Source: Halorussus vallis
GTDB taxonomy: Archaea > Halobacteriota > Halobacteria > Halobacteriales > Haladaptataceae
Length of the DNA stretch: 64,000 bases
Assembly: GCF_024138165.1 (NCBI RefSeq)
Contig: NZ_CP100000.1
Span: 2,108,001 to 2,172,000 of the forward strand
Reading direction: 5' to 3'
The notes below the pieces were generated by a model that saw only the letters and a list, made by a program, of their open reading frames with translations, ran no database searches and was not told where the DNA came from. This document shows, in pieces, positions 12,282-62,387 of this stretch. How positions within the stretch are numbered: the stretch's first letter is position 1; every line of letters starts with the position of its first letter. Made by a program: the position numbers and the translations under genes.

Positions 12282-13532
12282 TCACGACTCCACGCCCAGC
12301 ACGCGCTCGGCCGCTCGACCTACTGCATCCGTGTGCCGCTCGGGCGCGTAGACGCCGAAGCGCCACTGCGCGCGGCCGGCCGCCAGCACGCCCTCGACCA
12401 GCGGCGACTCCTCGGGGAGTCGCCGCACCTCCTCGCCGACGACCACGCTGGTTGAGGACTCGGGAATCGAGGGTTCGCCCGGTGTGTCCACCAGCACGCG
12501 GTCGGGCGCGACGCCCGCGGCGGCGGCGATGTCGCGTTCGAACGCCCGGACCGTCTCGTGGTCGGCGGTGACGACCGCCTCGGGAACCGCGTCGAGTTCG
12601 GCCCACGCCGCCCGCTTGTAGAGGTCCCGGCGTTCGAGGCGGGCGGCGGTTTCGGCGGTCGTCTCGCACGCCCGGAGCGCCGCCAGCAGTTCGGCGTCGG
12701 TCATCCGGGCGAAGCGCTCGGGGTCGAGGTCGGTCGCGTCGGCGTCGAGCAGGCGCTCGCTGGCGCGTTCGAGCATCGCACCCGCGATGCGGGAGGTGTG
12801 GTGGCGGTAGACCGCGGCGTTCATCAGCGCGCGGGCGACCAGCACGCTCTCGGCGGTCGGGACGTTGCCCGCCGCGAGCACGAGGTCACCGTCCCGCAGA
12901 CGGAGCGCTGACAGCAGGCGCTCGGGGTCGATGGTGCCGTAGGGGACGCCGGTGTGGTGGGCGTCCCGGAGGAGGTAGTCGACCCGGTCGACGTCGAGTT
13001 CGCCAGCGACGAGGCCGCCGAGTTCGCCCTCGCCCGCGACCAGCGCGGCGACCTCGTCGGGGTCGAGGCCGTGGGATTCGAGGACCGTGGCGAGCGAGTC
13101 GTCGCCCGCGGGGTCGCCCTCGGTCGCCGGCCCGCCGGGAATACCTTCGCCGGCGACTCGAGTCGCGTCGCGACCCGAGTCGCCGGCGAGTAGGTGGCCG
13201 ATTTCGTCGTGGTGGCGGCCGAGGCGGCGCTGGATGATGCCCTCGGTCTGGTGGCCGTAGGGACCGTGACCCACGTCGTGGAGCATCGCGGCCGCCCGGA
13301 CGGCCTTCGCGCGCTCGCCGTCGACGCCGAGGTGGGCGAGCGCCTCGCGGGCGAGGTGGTAGACGCCGAGGCTGTGCTCGAACCGGGTGTGGTTCGCGGA
13401 GGGGTAGACGAGCCTGACCGTGCCGAGTTGCTTGATGTGGCGCAACCGCTGGAACTCCGGCGCGTCCAGCAGGTCGCGGGCGAGGTCCCCGACCGGGATG
13501 TGGTCGTGGACGCTGTCCTTGATGGCTTCCAT
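12282..13532 (-). CDS. HD-domain phosphohydrolase, SAMHD1/dGTPase-like
   Basis: 416 residues from MEAIKDSVHDHIPVGDL. Family motifs are EFQRLRHIKQLG, NHTRFEHSLGVYHLA (metal-binding His), AAMLHDVGHGPYGH (HD) and LDVDRVDYLLRDAHHTGVPYG, in the order of dNTP triphosphohydrolase-like proteins. Likely role: hydrolysis of deoxynucleotides or related phosphates with a divalent metal. An upstream in-frame extension of nine codons is possible, but the chosen ATG matches the usual N terminus. Between HLLAGD and the next conserved block is an extra Gly/Ala-rich segment of about 25 residues, encoded partly by a long inverted repeat (13147-13189). Confidence 0.9.
   Translation of the reverse strand: MEAIKDSVHDHIPVGDLARDLLDAPEFQRLRHIKQLGTVRLVYPSANHTRFEHSLGVYHLAREALAHLGVDGERAKAVRAAAMLHDVGHGPYGHQTEGIIQRRLGRHHDEIGHLLAGDSGRDATRVAGEGIPGGPATEGDPAGDDSLATVLESHGLDPDEVAALVAGEGELGGLVAGELDVDRVDYLLRDAHHTGVPYGTIDPERLLSALRLRDGDLVLAAGNVPTAESVLVARALMNAAVYRHHTSRIAGAMLERASERLLDADATDLDPERFARMTDAELLAALRACETTAETAARLERRDLYKRAAWAELDAVPEAVVTADHETVRAFERDIAAAAGVAPDRVLVDTPGEPSIPESSTSVVVGEEVRRLPEESPLVEGVLAAGRAQWRFGVYAPERHTDAVGRAAERVLGVES
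13147..13189. repeat. Long inverted repeat inside a coding region
   Basis: Arms of 21 bases around a single central base (13168). The only mismatch is between 13161 and 13175. It encodes part of the variable Gly/Ala-rich insert of the HD phosphohydrolase without breaking the frame. Its architecture matches the intergenic palindromes listed elsewhere in this window. Confidence 0.85.
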
Positions 13533-16369: not shown

Positions 16370-16408
16370 CGGGCCGACCGGCGAATCGGCGATTCGCCGG
16401 TCGGCCCG
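16370..16408. repeat. Near-contiguous 19-bp inverted repeat, intergenic
   Basis: Perfect arms 16370-16388 and 16390-16408 with one central base. It starts 54 bases after the hydrolase-like stop and ends 43 bases before the adenylate-forming gene. No T tract follows. Arm sequence begins cgggccgaccggcgaatcg. Confidence 0.9.
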
Positions 16409-27348: not shown

Positions 27349-27384
27349 GCGGCAACGCCCGCGGCGTGCCGCGGGCGTTGCCGC
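27349..27384. repeat. 17-bp inverted repeat directly after the MFS stop codon
   Basis: Perfect arms 27349-27365 and 27368-27384 with a two-base loop. On the reverse strand it begins one base after the stop codon (27386-27388) of the MFS gene, so the MFS mRNA would end in a very stable hairpin. No U tract follows. Confidence 0.9.
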
Positions 27385-32629: not shown

Positions 32630-32914
32630 ATGAGTCTGAAAGAAGCGACCGAACTCCTGCGCGACCACGACTACCCCGCGACCACCGACCAACTCGCCGC
32701 CACGTACGGCGACTACGAGATCGAACTCGCGGAAGGTAGCGAGACGCTCGCGGACGTGTTCGAGCGCATCGAATCCGAGACACTCCACGGTTCGGGGGAA
32801 GCCGAGGAGATGCTCTACTCCGCGGTCAGCGCCAAGGCCATCGGCCGGAAGGGCTACAGCGACCGTGACCCGACGACGCTCGGGACCATGGGACCGGAGC
32901 AAGTCTCCTTCTAG
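32630..32914 (+). CDS. DUF5789-like small protein
   Basis: 94 residues: MSLKEATELLRDHDYPATTD, then DYEIELAEGSETLADVF and AIGRKGYSDRDPTTLG, a pattern I recall for the haloarchaeal DUF5789 family. Predicted small helical/beta protein without motifs. An upstream in-frame ATG (32615) would add five residues, but the TATA box position favours 32630. Followed after 6 bases by a very strong hairpin. Confidence 0.8.
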   Translation: MSLKEATELLRDHDYPATTDQLAATYGDYEIELAEGSETLADVFERIESETLHGSGEAEEMLYSAVSAKAIGRKGYSDRDPTTLGTMGPEQVSF

Positions 32915-32920
32915 ACCACC

Positions 32921-32982
32921 TTTTTTCGAGGAGTGGTAGCCGTGAGCGCCTGTGGCGCTCCGGCTACCACTCCTCGAAAAAA
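32921..32982. terminator. Very strong bidirectional hairpin terminator
   Basis: Arms of 22 bases (32921-32942 and 32961-32982) begin and end in six T and six A. A one-base bulge (32943) and a further 7-bp stem (32944-32950 / 32954-32960) close on a three-base loop. It follows the DUF5789-like stop by six bases and has T tracts on both strands, so it could end transcripts from either side. Confidence 0.75.
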
Positions 32983-33001
32983 TTTGGACCAAAAAAGGCA
33001 C

Positions 33002-33040
33002 GCGAGCGAGACGACGGCATATCGCCGTCGTCTCGCTCGC
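33002..33040. repeat. 17-bp inverted repeat between convergent genes
   Basis: Perfect arms 33002-33018 and 33024-33040 with a five-base loop (atatc). It lies 20 bases after the preceding hairpin. A shorter perfect repeat follows at 33198-33219 (10-bp arms, two-base loop). Confidence 0.88.
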
Positions 33041-36888: not shown

Positions 36889-36929
36889 GCCGACCCGGCC
36901 GCCGTCGAATCGACGGCGGCCGGGTCGGC
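36889..36929. repeat. 20-bp inverted repeat with one-base spacer
   Basis: Perfect arms 36889-36908 and 36910-36929 around a single A. It is the second palindrome in the 179-base gap, 58 bases upstream of the next start. Confidence 0.9.
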
Positions 36930-37198: not shown

Positions 37199-37241
37199 CG
37201 TCTTCGGACTCGCCTCCGGCGCGGAGGCGAGTCCGAAGACG
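37199..37241. repeat. 19-bp inverted repeat after the small membrane-protein gene
   Basis: Perfect arms 37199-37217 and 37223-37241 with a five-base loop, 23 bases after the stop codon. Confidence 0.9.
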
Positions 37242-37326: not shown

Positions 37327-39159
37327 GTGAACCCCGAGCGGATTTTCGAGGAGTTTCCCGCGCCCTCCTATCGCGGGAACCAGAAGCGGGCGCTCGCCGA
37401 CATCCGGGACGCCTTCGACGACGGCAACGACGTGGTGCTGGTGCGCGCGCCGACCGGGAGCGGCAAGTCGCTGCTCGCGCGGGCCATCGCGGGCTGCGCC
37501 CGCCGGGTCGACGAAGCCGACCCGAGCGACGCGACGGGGGCGTACTACACCACCCCGCAGGTGTCCCAACTCGACGACGTGGCCGAGGACGACCTGCTGA
37601 CCGACCTCAAGATAATCCGGGGCAAGAGCAACTACTCCTGCATCCTGCCGGGCGAGACGAACACGCCGGTCAACCGCGCGCCCTGCGCCCGCGAGAAGGG
37701 CTACGACTGCTCGGTCAAGCACCGGTGTCCGTACTTCTCGGACCGGGCCATCGCGAGCAACCGCGAGATAGCGGCGATGACGCTGGCGTACTTCATGCGG
37801 ACCGCCGGCTCCGAGGTGTTCCGCAAGCGGGACGTGGTGGTCGTCGACGAAGCCCACGGACTGGCGGAGTGGGCTGAGATGTACGCCGCCATCGACCTGA
37901 ACGCCCGGACGGTCCCCATCTGGGACGACCTGAAGGTGCCCGAAATCGACGGCCTCGACCGGGCGGTGACGTACGCCGAGCGAGTCCGGAACGCCTGCAA
38001 GCGCGAGAAGGACGACCTCATCGCCAAACCGGAACTCGACCCCCACGAGGCGGCCGAGCGCGACCGCCTGCAGGAACTCATCGGCGAACTCGACTGGTTC
38101 GTCGAGGACTACCGCGACAGCGAGAGCGCGACCACCTGGGTCGTCGACCAACCCGACGGCGAGGGCGGCGCGGTCACCATCAAGCCGATGAACCCCGAGC
38201 GCTACCTCAGCCACACCGTCTGGGACCGGGGCAACAGGTTCGCGCTCCTCTCGGCGACCATCCTGAACAAGGACGCCTTCTGCCGGCAGGTCGGCCTGAA
38301 CCCCGACAACGTCGCGCTGGTCGAGGTCGGCCACACCTTCCCCGTCGAGAACCGGCCGCTGTACGACGTGACCCAGGGGAAGATGACCTACGAGCACCGC
38401 GAGGAAACCCTGCCCGCCGTCGCCCGGACCATCGTCCGCATCATGCAGGCCCACCGCGGCGAGAAGGGCCTGATTCACGCCCACTCCTACGCCATTCAGG
38501 AGCGACTCGTCGACCTGCTCGACGACTTCGGCGTCGGCGACCGAATCCGGGCGCACACCCGCGAGAACCGCGACGCCGAACTCGAAGCCTGGAAGGCGAC
38601 CGACGGCGAGGAGGTGTTCCTCTCGGTCAAGATGGAGGAGGCCCTCGACCTGAAGGGCGACCTCGCGCGCTGGCAGGTGCTCTGCAAGGCGCCGTACCTC
38701 AACACGGGCGACTCACGGGTCGCCCACCGCCTCGAGTCCGGCCAGTGGGCATGGTACTACCGGGCCGCGCTCCGGACCGTCATCCAGGCCTGCGGTCGGG
38801 TGGTGCGGGCGCCCGACGACTACGGTGCGACCTACCTCGCCGACACCAGCCTGCTCGAACTGTTCGAGCGCGCCGAGAGCGACACTCCGGCGTGGTTCGC
38901 CGAGCAGGTCACCCGGACGAGCGACCCCGACCTCCCGGAGTTCTCGCCGCGCGACGCCAGCGAGTCGATGGGCGGCGCGACCGGCGGCCGCGGCCGCCGG
39001 TCGCGCTCGGGGTCGACCGGAGGCTCCTCGGGCGGGTCCCGCTCGGGAGCGGGGTCAGGCACTGCGACCGGCGGAGTTTCGGGCGGAAGCGACCGGTCGA
39101 CCGGCCGCGACTCCTCGGGCAAGAAGAGTCCGATGGCCGACGTCTGGGACGTGGAGTAA
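37327..39159 (+). CDS. XPD/Rad3-like Fe-S DNA helicase
   Basis: 610 residues from GTG (VNPERIFEEFPAPSYRGNQ). Superfamily-2 motifs: Walker A APTGSGKS at about 41, DEAH in VVVDEAHGLAEW at about 174, ALLSATIL, HAHSYAIQERL, FLSVKMEEALDLKGD and QACGRVVRAPDDYG. Between motifs I and II four cysteines (NYSC, APCAREKGYDC, HRCPYF) match the XPD-family 4Fe-4S cluster. Unwinds DNA 5' to 3'; archaeal members are probably repair helicases. The C terminus is a Ser/Gly/Arg-rich flexible tail of about 70 residues, unusual in length. The start fits the Q-motif position. Confidence 0.93.
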   Translation: MNPERIFEEFPAPSYRGNQKRALADIRDAFDDGNDVVLVRAPTGSGKSLLARAIAGCARRVDEADPSDATGAYYTTPQVSQLDDVAEDDLLTDLKIIRGKSNYSCILPGETNTPVNRAPCAREKGYDCSVKHRCPYFSDRAIASNREIAAMTLAYFMRTAGSEVFRKRDVVVVDEAHGLAEWAEMYAAIDLNARTVPIWDDLKVPEIDGLDRAVTYAERVRNACKREKDDLIAKPELDPHEAAERDRLQELIGELDWFVEDYRDSESATTWVVDQPDGEGGAVTIKPMNPERYLSHTVWDRGNRFALLSATILNKDAFCRQVGLNPDNVALVEVGHTFPVENRPLYDVTQGKMTYEHREETLPAVARTIVRIMQAHRGEKGLIHAHSYAIQERLVDLLDDFGVGDRIRAHTRENRDAELEAWKATDGEEVFLSVKMEEALDLKGDLARWQVLCKAPYLNTGDSRVAHRLESGQWAWYYRAALRTVIQACGRVVRAPDDYGATYLADTSLLELFERAESDTPAWFAEQVTRTSDPDLPEFSPRDASESMGGATGGRGRRSRSGSTGGSSGGSRSGAGSGTATGGVSGGSDRSTGRDSSGKKSPMADVWDVE

Positions 39160-39267: not shown

Positions 39268-40287
39268 ATGGGGGGTTTCAAAGACGACGCGGAGCGAGCA
39301 GAATCGACGCGAAACACCGACCGAACGCCGGGGATGGACGCTCCGTCGGCGGCGACCGACGACCCAGGGCCGGACGACGCGGGCGGCGCAGAATCGAACG
39401 ACGCGGGCGACCGGCGCTCGGCATCGCCGAGCGCCGGTCGCAGGAGCGTCCTCCGCGCGCTGGGGGCCGGCGCGGCACTCACCGCGCTCGGGGGGGCGAG
39501 CGAGGCGCGCTCGGCCGACCCGCCGGCCGAACGCGCCGTGTCCAAACGGGCGGCCGAGGCCCGCGAGCGGGCGCGCCAGGACGAGAACGTCGACCCGGTG
39601 TGGGGGTTCCCGGCGCTGTCGGACGAAACCCAACCGCCGGTCCGCCCCCAGCACGAGGTCGAACTCCAGATTCGGCCGCGCGACGCGCCGGTCCCGGAGT
39701 TCGTCTTCGACCCGACGGGGCTGTACATTGAATCCGGCGACACCGTCCGGTTCAGCTACGCGTCGCCCCACCACACGGTGACGGCGTACCACCCGGAGTT
39801 CGGCTACCTGCCGCGAGTCCCCGAAGGGGTGCCGCCGTTCTCCGCGCCCGCGCTCCCGCACGGCGGCTACTGGCTCTACACCTTCGACCAACCGGGCGTC
39901 TACGACCTCCACTGCGCGCCTCACGAGATATTCGGCCACGCGATGCGAATCGTCGTCGCGTCCCCGAGCGGGCCGGGCGCCGACCCCCTGCCGGACCTCT
40001 GCGCGCAGGGCGGCGCGACGACCGGGACGGCCGCGACGACGGTTCCGGAGGGCGGCGAAACCACCGCGGAAGGCGCGACGACCACCGACGAGGGGGGCGA
40101 AGGAGGTGAAGGAGGCGAAGGCGGCGAGGAGGAACTCAGCCCGCCCCGACTCGGCGCCTACGCGGTGCTAACCGACGACGCGCTCGACCCCGGGAACATC
40201 GTCGAGCAGAAACGGGTGCGCTGGGAGGACCTCGCGCCCGAGAGCAAACAGCTGTTCGTCAGGTTCGAAGGGTTTCCGCCCTGCTAA
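39268..40287 (+). CDS. Tat-exported cupredoxin (halocyanin/plastocyanin-like)
   Basis: 339 residues. An acidic N-terminal segment precedes a twin-arginine signal RRSVLRALGAGAALTALGG. The copper domain has SPHHTVTAYHPEFGYLP (first His), and CAPHEIFGHAMRIVV supplying Cys, His and Met. A Gly/Glu-rich repeat (EGGEGGEGGEGGEE) links to a conserved-looking C-terminal tail (RLGAYAVLTDDALDPGNIVE). Carries electrons or copper outside the membrane. The unusually long N terminus before the twin arginines may mean a later true start, but no better ATG is obvious. Confidence 0.88.
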   Translation: MGGFKDDAERAESTRNTDRTPGMDAPSAATDDPGPDDAGGAESNDAGDRRSASPSAGRRSVLRALGAGAALTALGGASEARSADPPAERAVSKRAAEARERARQDENVDPVWGFPALSDETQPPVRPQHEVELQIRPRDAPVPEFVFDPTGLYIESGDTVRFSYASPHHTVTAYHPEFGYLPRVPEGVPPFSAPALPHGGYWLYTFDQPGVYDLHCAPHEIFGHAMRIVVASPSGPGADPLPDLCAQGGATTGTAATTVPEGGETTAEGATTTDEGGEGGEGGEGGEEELSPPRLGAYAVLTDDALDPGNIVEQKRVRWEDLAPESKQLFVRFEGFPPC

Positions 40288-43957: not shown

Positions 43958-44007
43958 CTCGCCGGCCTAGGCGAATCGGCCGCGGCCGATTCGCCTAGGC
44001 CGGCGAG
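43958..44007. repeat. Perfect 50-bp palindrome
   Basis: Two 25-base arms with no spacer (43958-43982 and 43983-44007); the left arm starts ctcgccggcctaggcgaatc. It lies 15 bases downstream of the epimerase stop (reverse strand) and 54 bases upstream of the DUF2243 start. This is the longest uninterrupted palindrome I found in the window. Confidence 0.95.
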
Positions 44008-46777: not shown

Positions 46778-46809
46778 GGTCGAATCGGCTCGGTCGAGCC
46801 GATTCGACC
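46778..46809. repeat. 15-bp inverted repeat after htpX
   Basis: Perfect arms 46778-46792 and 46795-46809 with a two-base loop, 11 bases after the htpX stop. Confidence 0.9.
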
Positions 46810-46845: not shown

Positions 46846-46892
46846 TCCGTGGTGCGAGTCGCGACGCGCCGCGTCGCGACTCGCACCACGGA
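46846..46892. repeat. 22-bp inverted repeat between convergent genes
   Basis: Perfect arms 46846-46867 and 46871-46892 with a three-base loop. It ends 16 bases before the stop codon of the convergent DsrE-like gene; together with the repeat at 46778 it fills the 142-base gap. Confidence 0.92.
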
Positions 46893-46908: not shown

Positions 46909-47247
46909 TCAGGGAATCTTGACGTACGCGTAGCCGTCGGCCTGCAACTTCGCGAGTTCGCCCACGCCCGTGGGCACCGTCTCGATACCGTCGAGGAGGT
47001 CCGACTCGTCCACGCCCCGGGAGTCGAGGCTGTTCCGGCACGCGAGTAGCGAGACGCCGTTCTCCGCCAGGGCCTCGACGCGTTCGGGGTCGGTCGAGTC
47101 GGTTGTCAGCAGGGCGACGCCGTCGCCGTTCGCCACGAGCGCGGACGACTCGACCGCGGTCGAGTCGTCCGCGAGCAGGTTCTCGACGTTCGACACCGCG
47201 TGGTCCTGTTCGCCGCGTTCGCCGCTGAAGTGGAGTACGACGTTCAC
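46909..47247 (-). CDS. DsrE/F-like small protein
   Basis: 112 residues from GTG (VNVVLHFSGERGEQDHAVS). The fold is shown by a strand-helix start, ENLLADDSTAVESSALVANG, then SLLACRNSLDSRGVDESDLL and VPTGVGELAKLQADGYAYV. The single Cys in LLACRNSL is at the position of the active Cys of DsrE-type sulfur-transfer proteins. Likely sulfur handling or a regulatory homologue. Frame extends upstream but the family begins here. Confidence 0.85.
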   Translation of the reverse strand: MNVVLHFSGERGEQDHAVSNVENLLADDSTAVESSALVANGDGVALLTTDSTDPERVEALAENGVSLLACRNSLDSRGVDESDLLDGIETVPTGVGELAKLQADGYAYVKIP

Positions 47248-57901: not shown

Positions 57902-57938
57902 GGCCCGCGCCGACCGCGGGCCGCGGTCGGCGCGGGCC
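57902..57938. repeat. 18-bp inverted repeat between divergent genes
   Basis: Perfect arms 57902-57919 and 57921-57938 with a one-base spacer, 39 bases upstream of the start at 57977 and on the far side of the sufS promoter region. As both flanking genes point away from it, it cannot be a terminator of either. Confidence 0.9.
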
Positions 57939-62353: not shown

Positions 62354-62387
62354 CGTTGCGAGTGCCGCCGCGGCGGCACTCGCAACG
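62354..62387. repeat. Perfect 34-bp palindrome upstream of arsR
   Basis: Arms 62354-62370 and 62371-62387 without spacer, 106 bases after the aIF6 stop. Its right end touches a TATA-like gtttatctga, so it lies just upstream of the ars promoter. Confidence 0.92.

Follow-up and report, generated by a model that had tools for sequence, protein, structure and literature searches.

How does a near-perfect palindrome come to lie in frame within an otherwise conserved enzyme, and was it brought there from elsewhere in the genome or made where it stands? An HD phosphohydrolase gene of Halorussus vallis raises this question. The gene lies in the window, that is, the whole stretch of 64,000 nucleotides analysed here, and three of its features are concerned:

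12282-13532, minus strand: HD-domain phosphohydrolase gene, 416 amino acids, containing the insertion
13107-13187, minus strand: in-frame insertion relative to homologues, 81 bp or 27 codons, placed to within a few codons
13147-13189, unstranded: palindrome in the HD gene, arms of 21 bp with one mismatch, 1-nt spacer

An extra segment in the HD phosphohydrolase

The inverted repeat with 21-bp arms and one mismatch, which a first-pass annotation had located at 13147-13189, is found at exactly that place. Its arms (13147-13167 and 13169-13189, 21 nt each) are 95% complementary across a spacer of 1 nt, and the minus-strand translation of the repeat is LLAGDSGRDATRVAGE of the HD protein. The palindrome is beyond chance, as 4th-order Markov shuffles of the window yielded no perfect palindrome with arms longer than 13, and a genome search showed its sequence to be single-copy in the 5.05-Mb genome. 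The surrounding open reading frame matches the Pfam families HD (PF01966) and HD_assoc_2 (PF19276).

The protein was compared with 29 homologous loci from the genus, the family and the order. The homologues contain the conserved blocks LHDVGHGPYGHQTEG...HHDE and ...HGLDP...GELDVDR, linked by a short stretch, LLADGxLAxVL, and between these blocks only the window protein carries 27 additional residues. The segment that the first-pass annotation had called extra is indeed missing from nearly all of the 29 haloarchaeal homologues, and its conservation in distant homologues, which would have spoken against that claim, was not seen. The same loop is longer in G001 (H. halobius, +10 aa) and in G003 (H. 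litoreus, +5 aa), with unrelated sequences. The palindrome falls almost entirely within the 81-bp insertion and fills about half of it. The other, non-palindromic half is rich in GGCGAC, and GGCGACTCG and GGCGACGACTCG flank the insertion at its two boundaries, an arrangement compatible with either junction duplication or slippage. The AlphaFold model of the protein is poor (pLDDT 45.6) and therefore gives only a weak indication that the insert lies in a coil (about residues 117-146). The insertion with its palindrome would have arisen on the branch of this species alone, lengthening a loop, and no function is assumed for the palindrome.

Abundance of palindromes in Halorussus

Perfect palindromes with arms of at least 16 bp and a loop or spacer of at most 8 nt were counted across genomes, with genes called by a simple gene caller of our own. 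The window genome (G000) holds 68 of them in 504 kb, or 135/Mb, which extrapolates to ~680 genome-wide. Called genes contain 24 of these 68, which answers a question raised by the first-pass annotation: genes other than the HD gene do hold in-frame palindromes. In the window itself, palindromes outside the HD gene include:

16370-16408, unstranded: intergenic palindrome, arms 19, spacer 1
27349-27384, unstranded: palindrome between genes, arms 17, spacer 2; the left arm can be aligned to H. marinus and the alignment ends near the palindrome centre
36889-36929, unstranded: intergenic palindrome, arms 20, spacer 1
37199-37241, unstranded: intergenic palindrome, arms 20, spacer 3
38975-39006, unstranded: in-frame coding palindrome, arms 16, spacer 0, in the gene at 37327-39159 (plus strand); the Gly/Arg-rich segment is shorter in H. 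marinus
39407-39441, unstranded: in-frame coding palindrome, arms 16, spacer 3, in the gene at 39334-40287 (plus strand); coincides with an indel relative to G006
43958-44007, unstranded: intergenic palindrome, arms 25, spacer 0
46778-46809, unstranded: intergenic palindrome, arms 15, spacer 2
46846-46892, unstranded: intergenic palindrome, arms 23, spacer 1, in the same intergenic spacer as the preceding one; this spacer measures 142 bp, against 24 bp in G006
47140-47173, unstranded: in-frame coding palindrome, arms 17, spacer 0; the G006 orthologue has perfect core arms of 11 bp at the same site, so the palindrome was extended in place
57902-57938, unstranded: intergenic palindrome, arms 18, spacer 1; in this intergenic spacer G006 holds a different palindrome (arms 15, spacer 2) and H. 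marinus none
62354-62387, unstranded: intergenic palindrome, arms 17, spacer 0; the intergenic spacer of 171 bp corresponds to one of 99 bp in H. marinus

Two congeners are likewise rich in palindromes, G006 with 181/Mb and G011 (H. amylolyticus) with 94/Mb. The remaining sampled congeners and relatives, many of them represented by samples of 40 kb, give a pooled density of 8.3/Mb, and H. marinus (G009) has no perfect palindrome in 360 kb. Markov-shuffled sequence is essentially free of palindromes with arms of at least 16. For 20-bp arms with 0-1 mismatch, densities are 70/Mb in 0.82 Mb of the rich genomes, 3.4/Mb in the poor relatives and 0 in shuffles. The rich genomes do not form one clade in a tree built from the HD gene only: G000 pairs with the poor genome G017, and G006 and G011 fall into an unresolved group with the poor G009. 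The G011 total includes one entry made up of 16 consecutive G and then 24 C (L127:11785-11824, G011 C2). It lies in a convergent spacer and was scored as a palindrome, and it could be either a genuine palindrome of homopolymers or an artefact of assembly.

Anatomy and genomic context

The arms fall into a distinct length class of 15-20 bp with a sharp cutoff (19 bp, n = 20; 20 bp, n = 13; 21 bp, n = 1), and their GC content is 82% as compared with 67% in the flanks. The two arms are most often separated by 0 or 1 nt (66 of the 135 palindromes examined). Perfect palindromes with 16-bp arms reach 131/Mb in rich genomes, those with one mismatch 78/Mb and those with two 64/Mb, an order opposite to that in poor genomes and in shuffles, and single mismatches lie mainly at the palindrome centre or at the outer end. 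Strand-blind counts of mismatches (G-T 12, A-C 16) show no excess of G-T.

The sequences themselves have little in common. There is no common core, since shared stretches above 11 nt are almost absent among the 135 arms, and direct repeats of 4-6 bp flanking the palindromes do not exceed the control, so that target duplication is absent. All ten window palindromes tested are single-copy in the 5.05-Mb genome, and each was therefore made separately. The first-pass annotation had described the HD palindrome as being of the same type as the intergenic ones; this is true of its form (size, spacer, GC and near-perfection) but not of its sequence, which is unique in 5.05 Mb. From its form, we infer that it was born by the same process as the genome-wide set.

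Palindromes are enriched in intergenic DNA, and about one third of them lie in coding DNA. Intergenic cases occur in all orientations, roughly in proportion to spacer length (divergent 27, tandem 39 and convergent 14, where spacer length predicts 20, 48 and 11). An Rfam search of the window returned no match.

The genome also carries a dispersed element near gene ends (window 32909-33040; by the positions of its T-run, L040:1406 and 12628, L050:11261 and 12192, L039:7800, L052:6244 and L066:13510). Its layout is GAAGATGCG-[stem]-CGCGTGTCC-TTTTTTGGTCCAGATTTTTTCGAGGAGCGGTGGC-[second hairpin]-CGACGAAGAAAAAAGGTGG, in which the flanks are common to the copies and the stem, of 17-20 bp, is perfectly or nearly perfectly paired and differs in each copy. 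The element is also present in H. halobius, has no Rfam match at the gathering score and is possibly a terminator-like RNA element.

Comparison with orthologous sites

The nearest relatives compared share only ~80% DNA identity, so that no clean pair of states before and after palindrome formation is available. Of 52 alignable palindrome sites, 23 align free of indels; among shifted controls, the figure is 373 of 468 windows (Fisher p = 1.5e-7). Over the orthologous site, the palindrome-bearing genome shows a median length gain of 21 bp, close to the size of one arm, the value for controls being 0 (p = 0.0009), and about one fifth of the comparable sites show zero net length change. Palindrome-bearing spacers exceed their orthologues by a median of 103 bp, as compared with 6 bp where spacers hold no palindrome (p = 0.008, small n), a gain that must be read in the light of the greater room that longer spacers offer to palindromes anyway. 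The orthologous spacers are usually without palindromes.

In the clearest case (G006, position 1,468,097), the right arm is a gene end conserved in H. marinus, and the greater part of the left arm has no counterpart in that species and provides the stop of the neighbouring gene. Elsewhere, the orthologues of window 47140 and L043:1323 already have a shorter or imperfect palindrome, and a change from imperfect to perfect with no change in length is seen at these two sites and at position 99613 of the G006 HD region. Where both arms align without indels, the two show no excess asymmetry that would mark one as source and the other as target, and alignments of one arm only are not enriched over controls (8 of 52 versus 46 of 468). 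Orthologous genes in the HD regions of G006 (115714; L135:15714) and G011 (20882; L125:882) hold coding palindromes with arms of 15 and a spacer of 5 that have the same GCTCG loop and differing arms (GTCGGTCGCGTTCGC and GGCGACCGCGCTCGC), a possible recurrent hot spot or conserved hairpin.

Origin of the palindromes

The reading preferred here, with a probability of roughly 0.6, is a lineage-specific, locally templated inverted duplication, most probably by replicative template switching. The nascent strand, or the opposite strand at a fork, would briefly template about 12-20 nt, and the newly made sequence would be the reverse complement of its neighbour. The copy could be inserted, with a net gain of about one arm, or could replace existing sequence and thereby homogenise the arms; the products would persist in intergenic DNA and, frame and folding permitting, in variable protein loops. 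Template switching is favoured because inverted copies of neighbouring sequence and extension in place are its known products elsewhere. In other organisms, it creates and homogenises such stems (PMC8794818, PMC8604942, PMC3820800), and quasipalindrome correction, like the process proposed for Halorussus, generates or perfects short local inverted repeats both inside and outside coding sequence, whether or not the length changes. However, such corrections are known as single events, whereas the palindromes number in the hundreds in the genomes of certain Halorussus species, and their arms stop sharply at 20 bp. An excess of inverted repeats in prokaryotic genes has likewise been attributed to template switching, but it is mild, concerns repeats of 6-9 bp and is weakest in archaea (PMC4060949), in contrast to the great excess of 15-20-bp perfect palindromes in Halorussus. 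The HD insert also counts against template switching in that about half of its 81 bp is non-palindromic. Moreover, the GC content of the arms lies above what random local copying would give, so GC-rich stems must be favoured. The enzymatic step and the identity of the source arm are what we infer here.

The palindromes may instead stem from the repair of broken ends, an unlikely course of events in which an end folds to a closed hairpin that, after off-centre opening and fill-in, leaves a zero-spacer palindrome, as in P-nucleotides. A fold-back loop requires about 3 nt, and the preponderance of 0- and 1-nt spacers is in keeping with hairpin opening. Inverted duplications are reported to form at breaks in Mre11-deficient yeast (PMC10622511). 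Against this, Mre11 and Rad50 are intact in 16 of 16 genomes examined with no Mre11 change that the rich ones share, and the length-neutral rewriting of imperfect palindromes is left unexplained. Template switching predicts arm asymmetry and an excess of one-arm alignments, and both may have been erased at ~80% identity and by repeated events; their absence nevertheless means that hairpin-end opening stays a live alternative to template switching.

Selection is an improbable cause. Stems that act in RNA as terminator or stabiliser hairpins, or in DNA as cruciform sites, would be kept perfect while their sequence drifts, which would agree with the high arm GC, with the intergenic enrichment and with the dispersed 3'-end element, whose stem stays paired but variable. 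Yet the contexts track intergenic length, a third of the palindromes are coding, orthologous spacers are usually palindrome-free, G-T mismatches are not above A-C, and sister species manage without palindromes. Gene-end terminators were rejected as an explanation for the bulk of cases, as divergent spacers are not depleted and a third of cases are coding.

Mobile palindromic elements often leave target-site duplications when they are MITEs and none when they are PATEs. That a mobile element of the RPE, PATE or MITE kind, with very fast divergence or a hypervariable stem, underlies the set is very improbable, even if the insertion-like length gain, the burst-like spread among species and the in-frame insertions recall one. 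Rickettsial palindromic elements are ~150-bp elements of ten sequence families with a conserved encoded peptide (PMC10969869). Like them, the Halorussus insertions are palindromic and preserve the reading frame of the host gene, and the HD insertion is in frame and missing from nearly all homologues; unlike them, the Halorussus palindromes are 30-50 bp long and of unrelated sequence, with no family or conserved peptide. The PATEs and IS605-type ends of Haloquadratum are similarly haloarchaeal, with palindromes of ~20 bp and no target duplication, but they are repeat families whose members carry similar palindromes near their termini and share a conserved oligonucleotide at the terminus (PMC3119063); the single-copy Halorussus palindromes show neither. 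A mobile family was thus rejected on the single-copy sequences, the lack of a common core and the lack of target duplication, and some events are extensions in place. Finally, growth of the HD loop by slippage of GGCGAC-like repeats with an incidental palindrome, or palindromes that are assembly artefacts, is scarcely credible: the differing expansions in G001 and G003 and the GGCGAC-rich half with its boundary sequences would suit slippage, but a 21-bp arm with one mismatch is beyond chance and has hundreds of companions, coding cases keep their reading frames, and the pattern recurs in three separate assemblies.

Of the two origins that the first-pass annotation had considered for the intergenic palindromes, mobility finds no backing, nor does kinship with the rickettsial elements, and self-generation does: they were very probably made in place, in the same form as the HD palindrome. 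What survives of its notion of a coding capture is that an enzyme conserved in its other parts has received an in-frame insertion specific to this lineage, but no intergenic element was captured, and the data fit a palindrome that originated at its site.

Candidate genes

The repair and polymerase candidates tested were Mre11-Rad50, ExoVII, PolY and RNase HII, and none of these separates rich from poor genomes. Loss of a hairpin nuclease was rejected, since each of the 16 genomes examined has an intact Rad50 (888 aa) and Mre11. A single position in these two proteins sets every rich genome apart from every poor one, a conservative E>D exchange in Rad50, the zinc-hook model of which is too weak for use, and Mre11 has no change common to the rich genomes. 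ExoVII is patchy, with strong matches in the rich G000 and the poor G001, G004, G009 and G013 and no strong match in the rich G006 and G011. PolY and RNase HII are present once each per genome, except in the incomplete G012. The Mre11 of the window genome (L158:3668-5191) has 507 aa, compared with 411-483 aa in congeners, owing to private insertions in the C-terminal part that leave the catalytic motifs unaltered.

A more speculative and unlikely reading is that in some Halorussus species a dedicated or strongly dysregulated activity writes GC-rich inverted duplications and was repeatedly gained or lost within the genus. Such an activity could be a polymerase, a nuclease or a mobile factor, with a limit of ~20 bp per arm, and would bring about a genome-wide turnover of palindromes and new in-frame protein segments.

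Implications

Palindromes made by template switching are normally rare and observed singly. Those in Halorussus seem to be new in their scale, their size class and their confinement to certain lineages, and the open literature searched, a body that leaves most subscription journals outside, yielded no report on palindromes in the genomes of this genus. A lineage with hundreds of palindromes beside near-empty sisters would allow direct comparative and genetic tests of why palindromes form, and the process would offer a simple route to additional protein segments without mobile elements.
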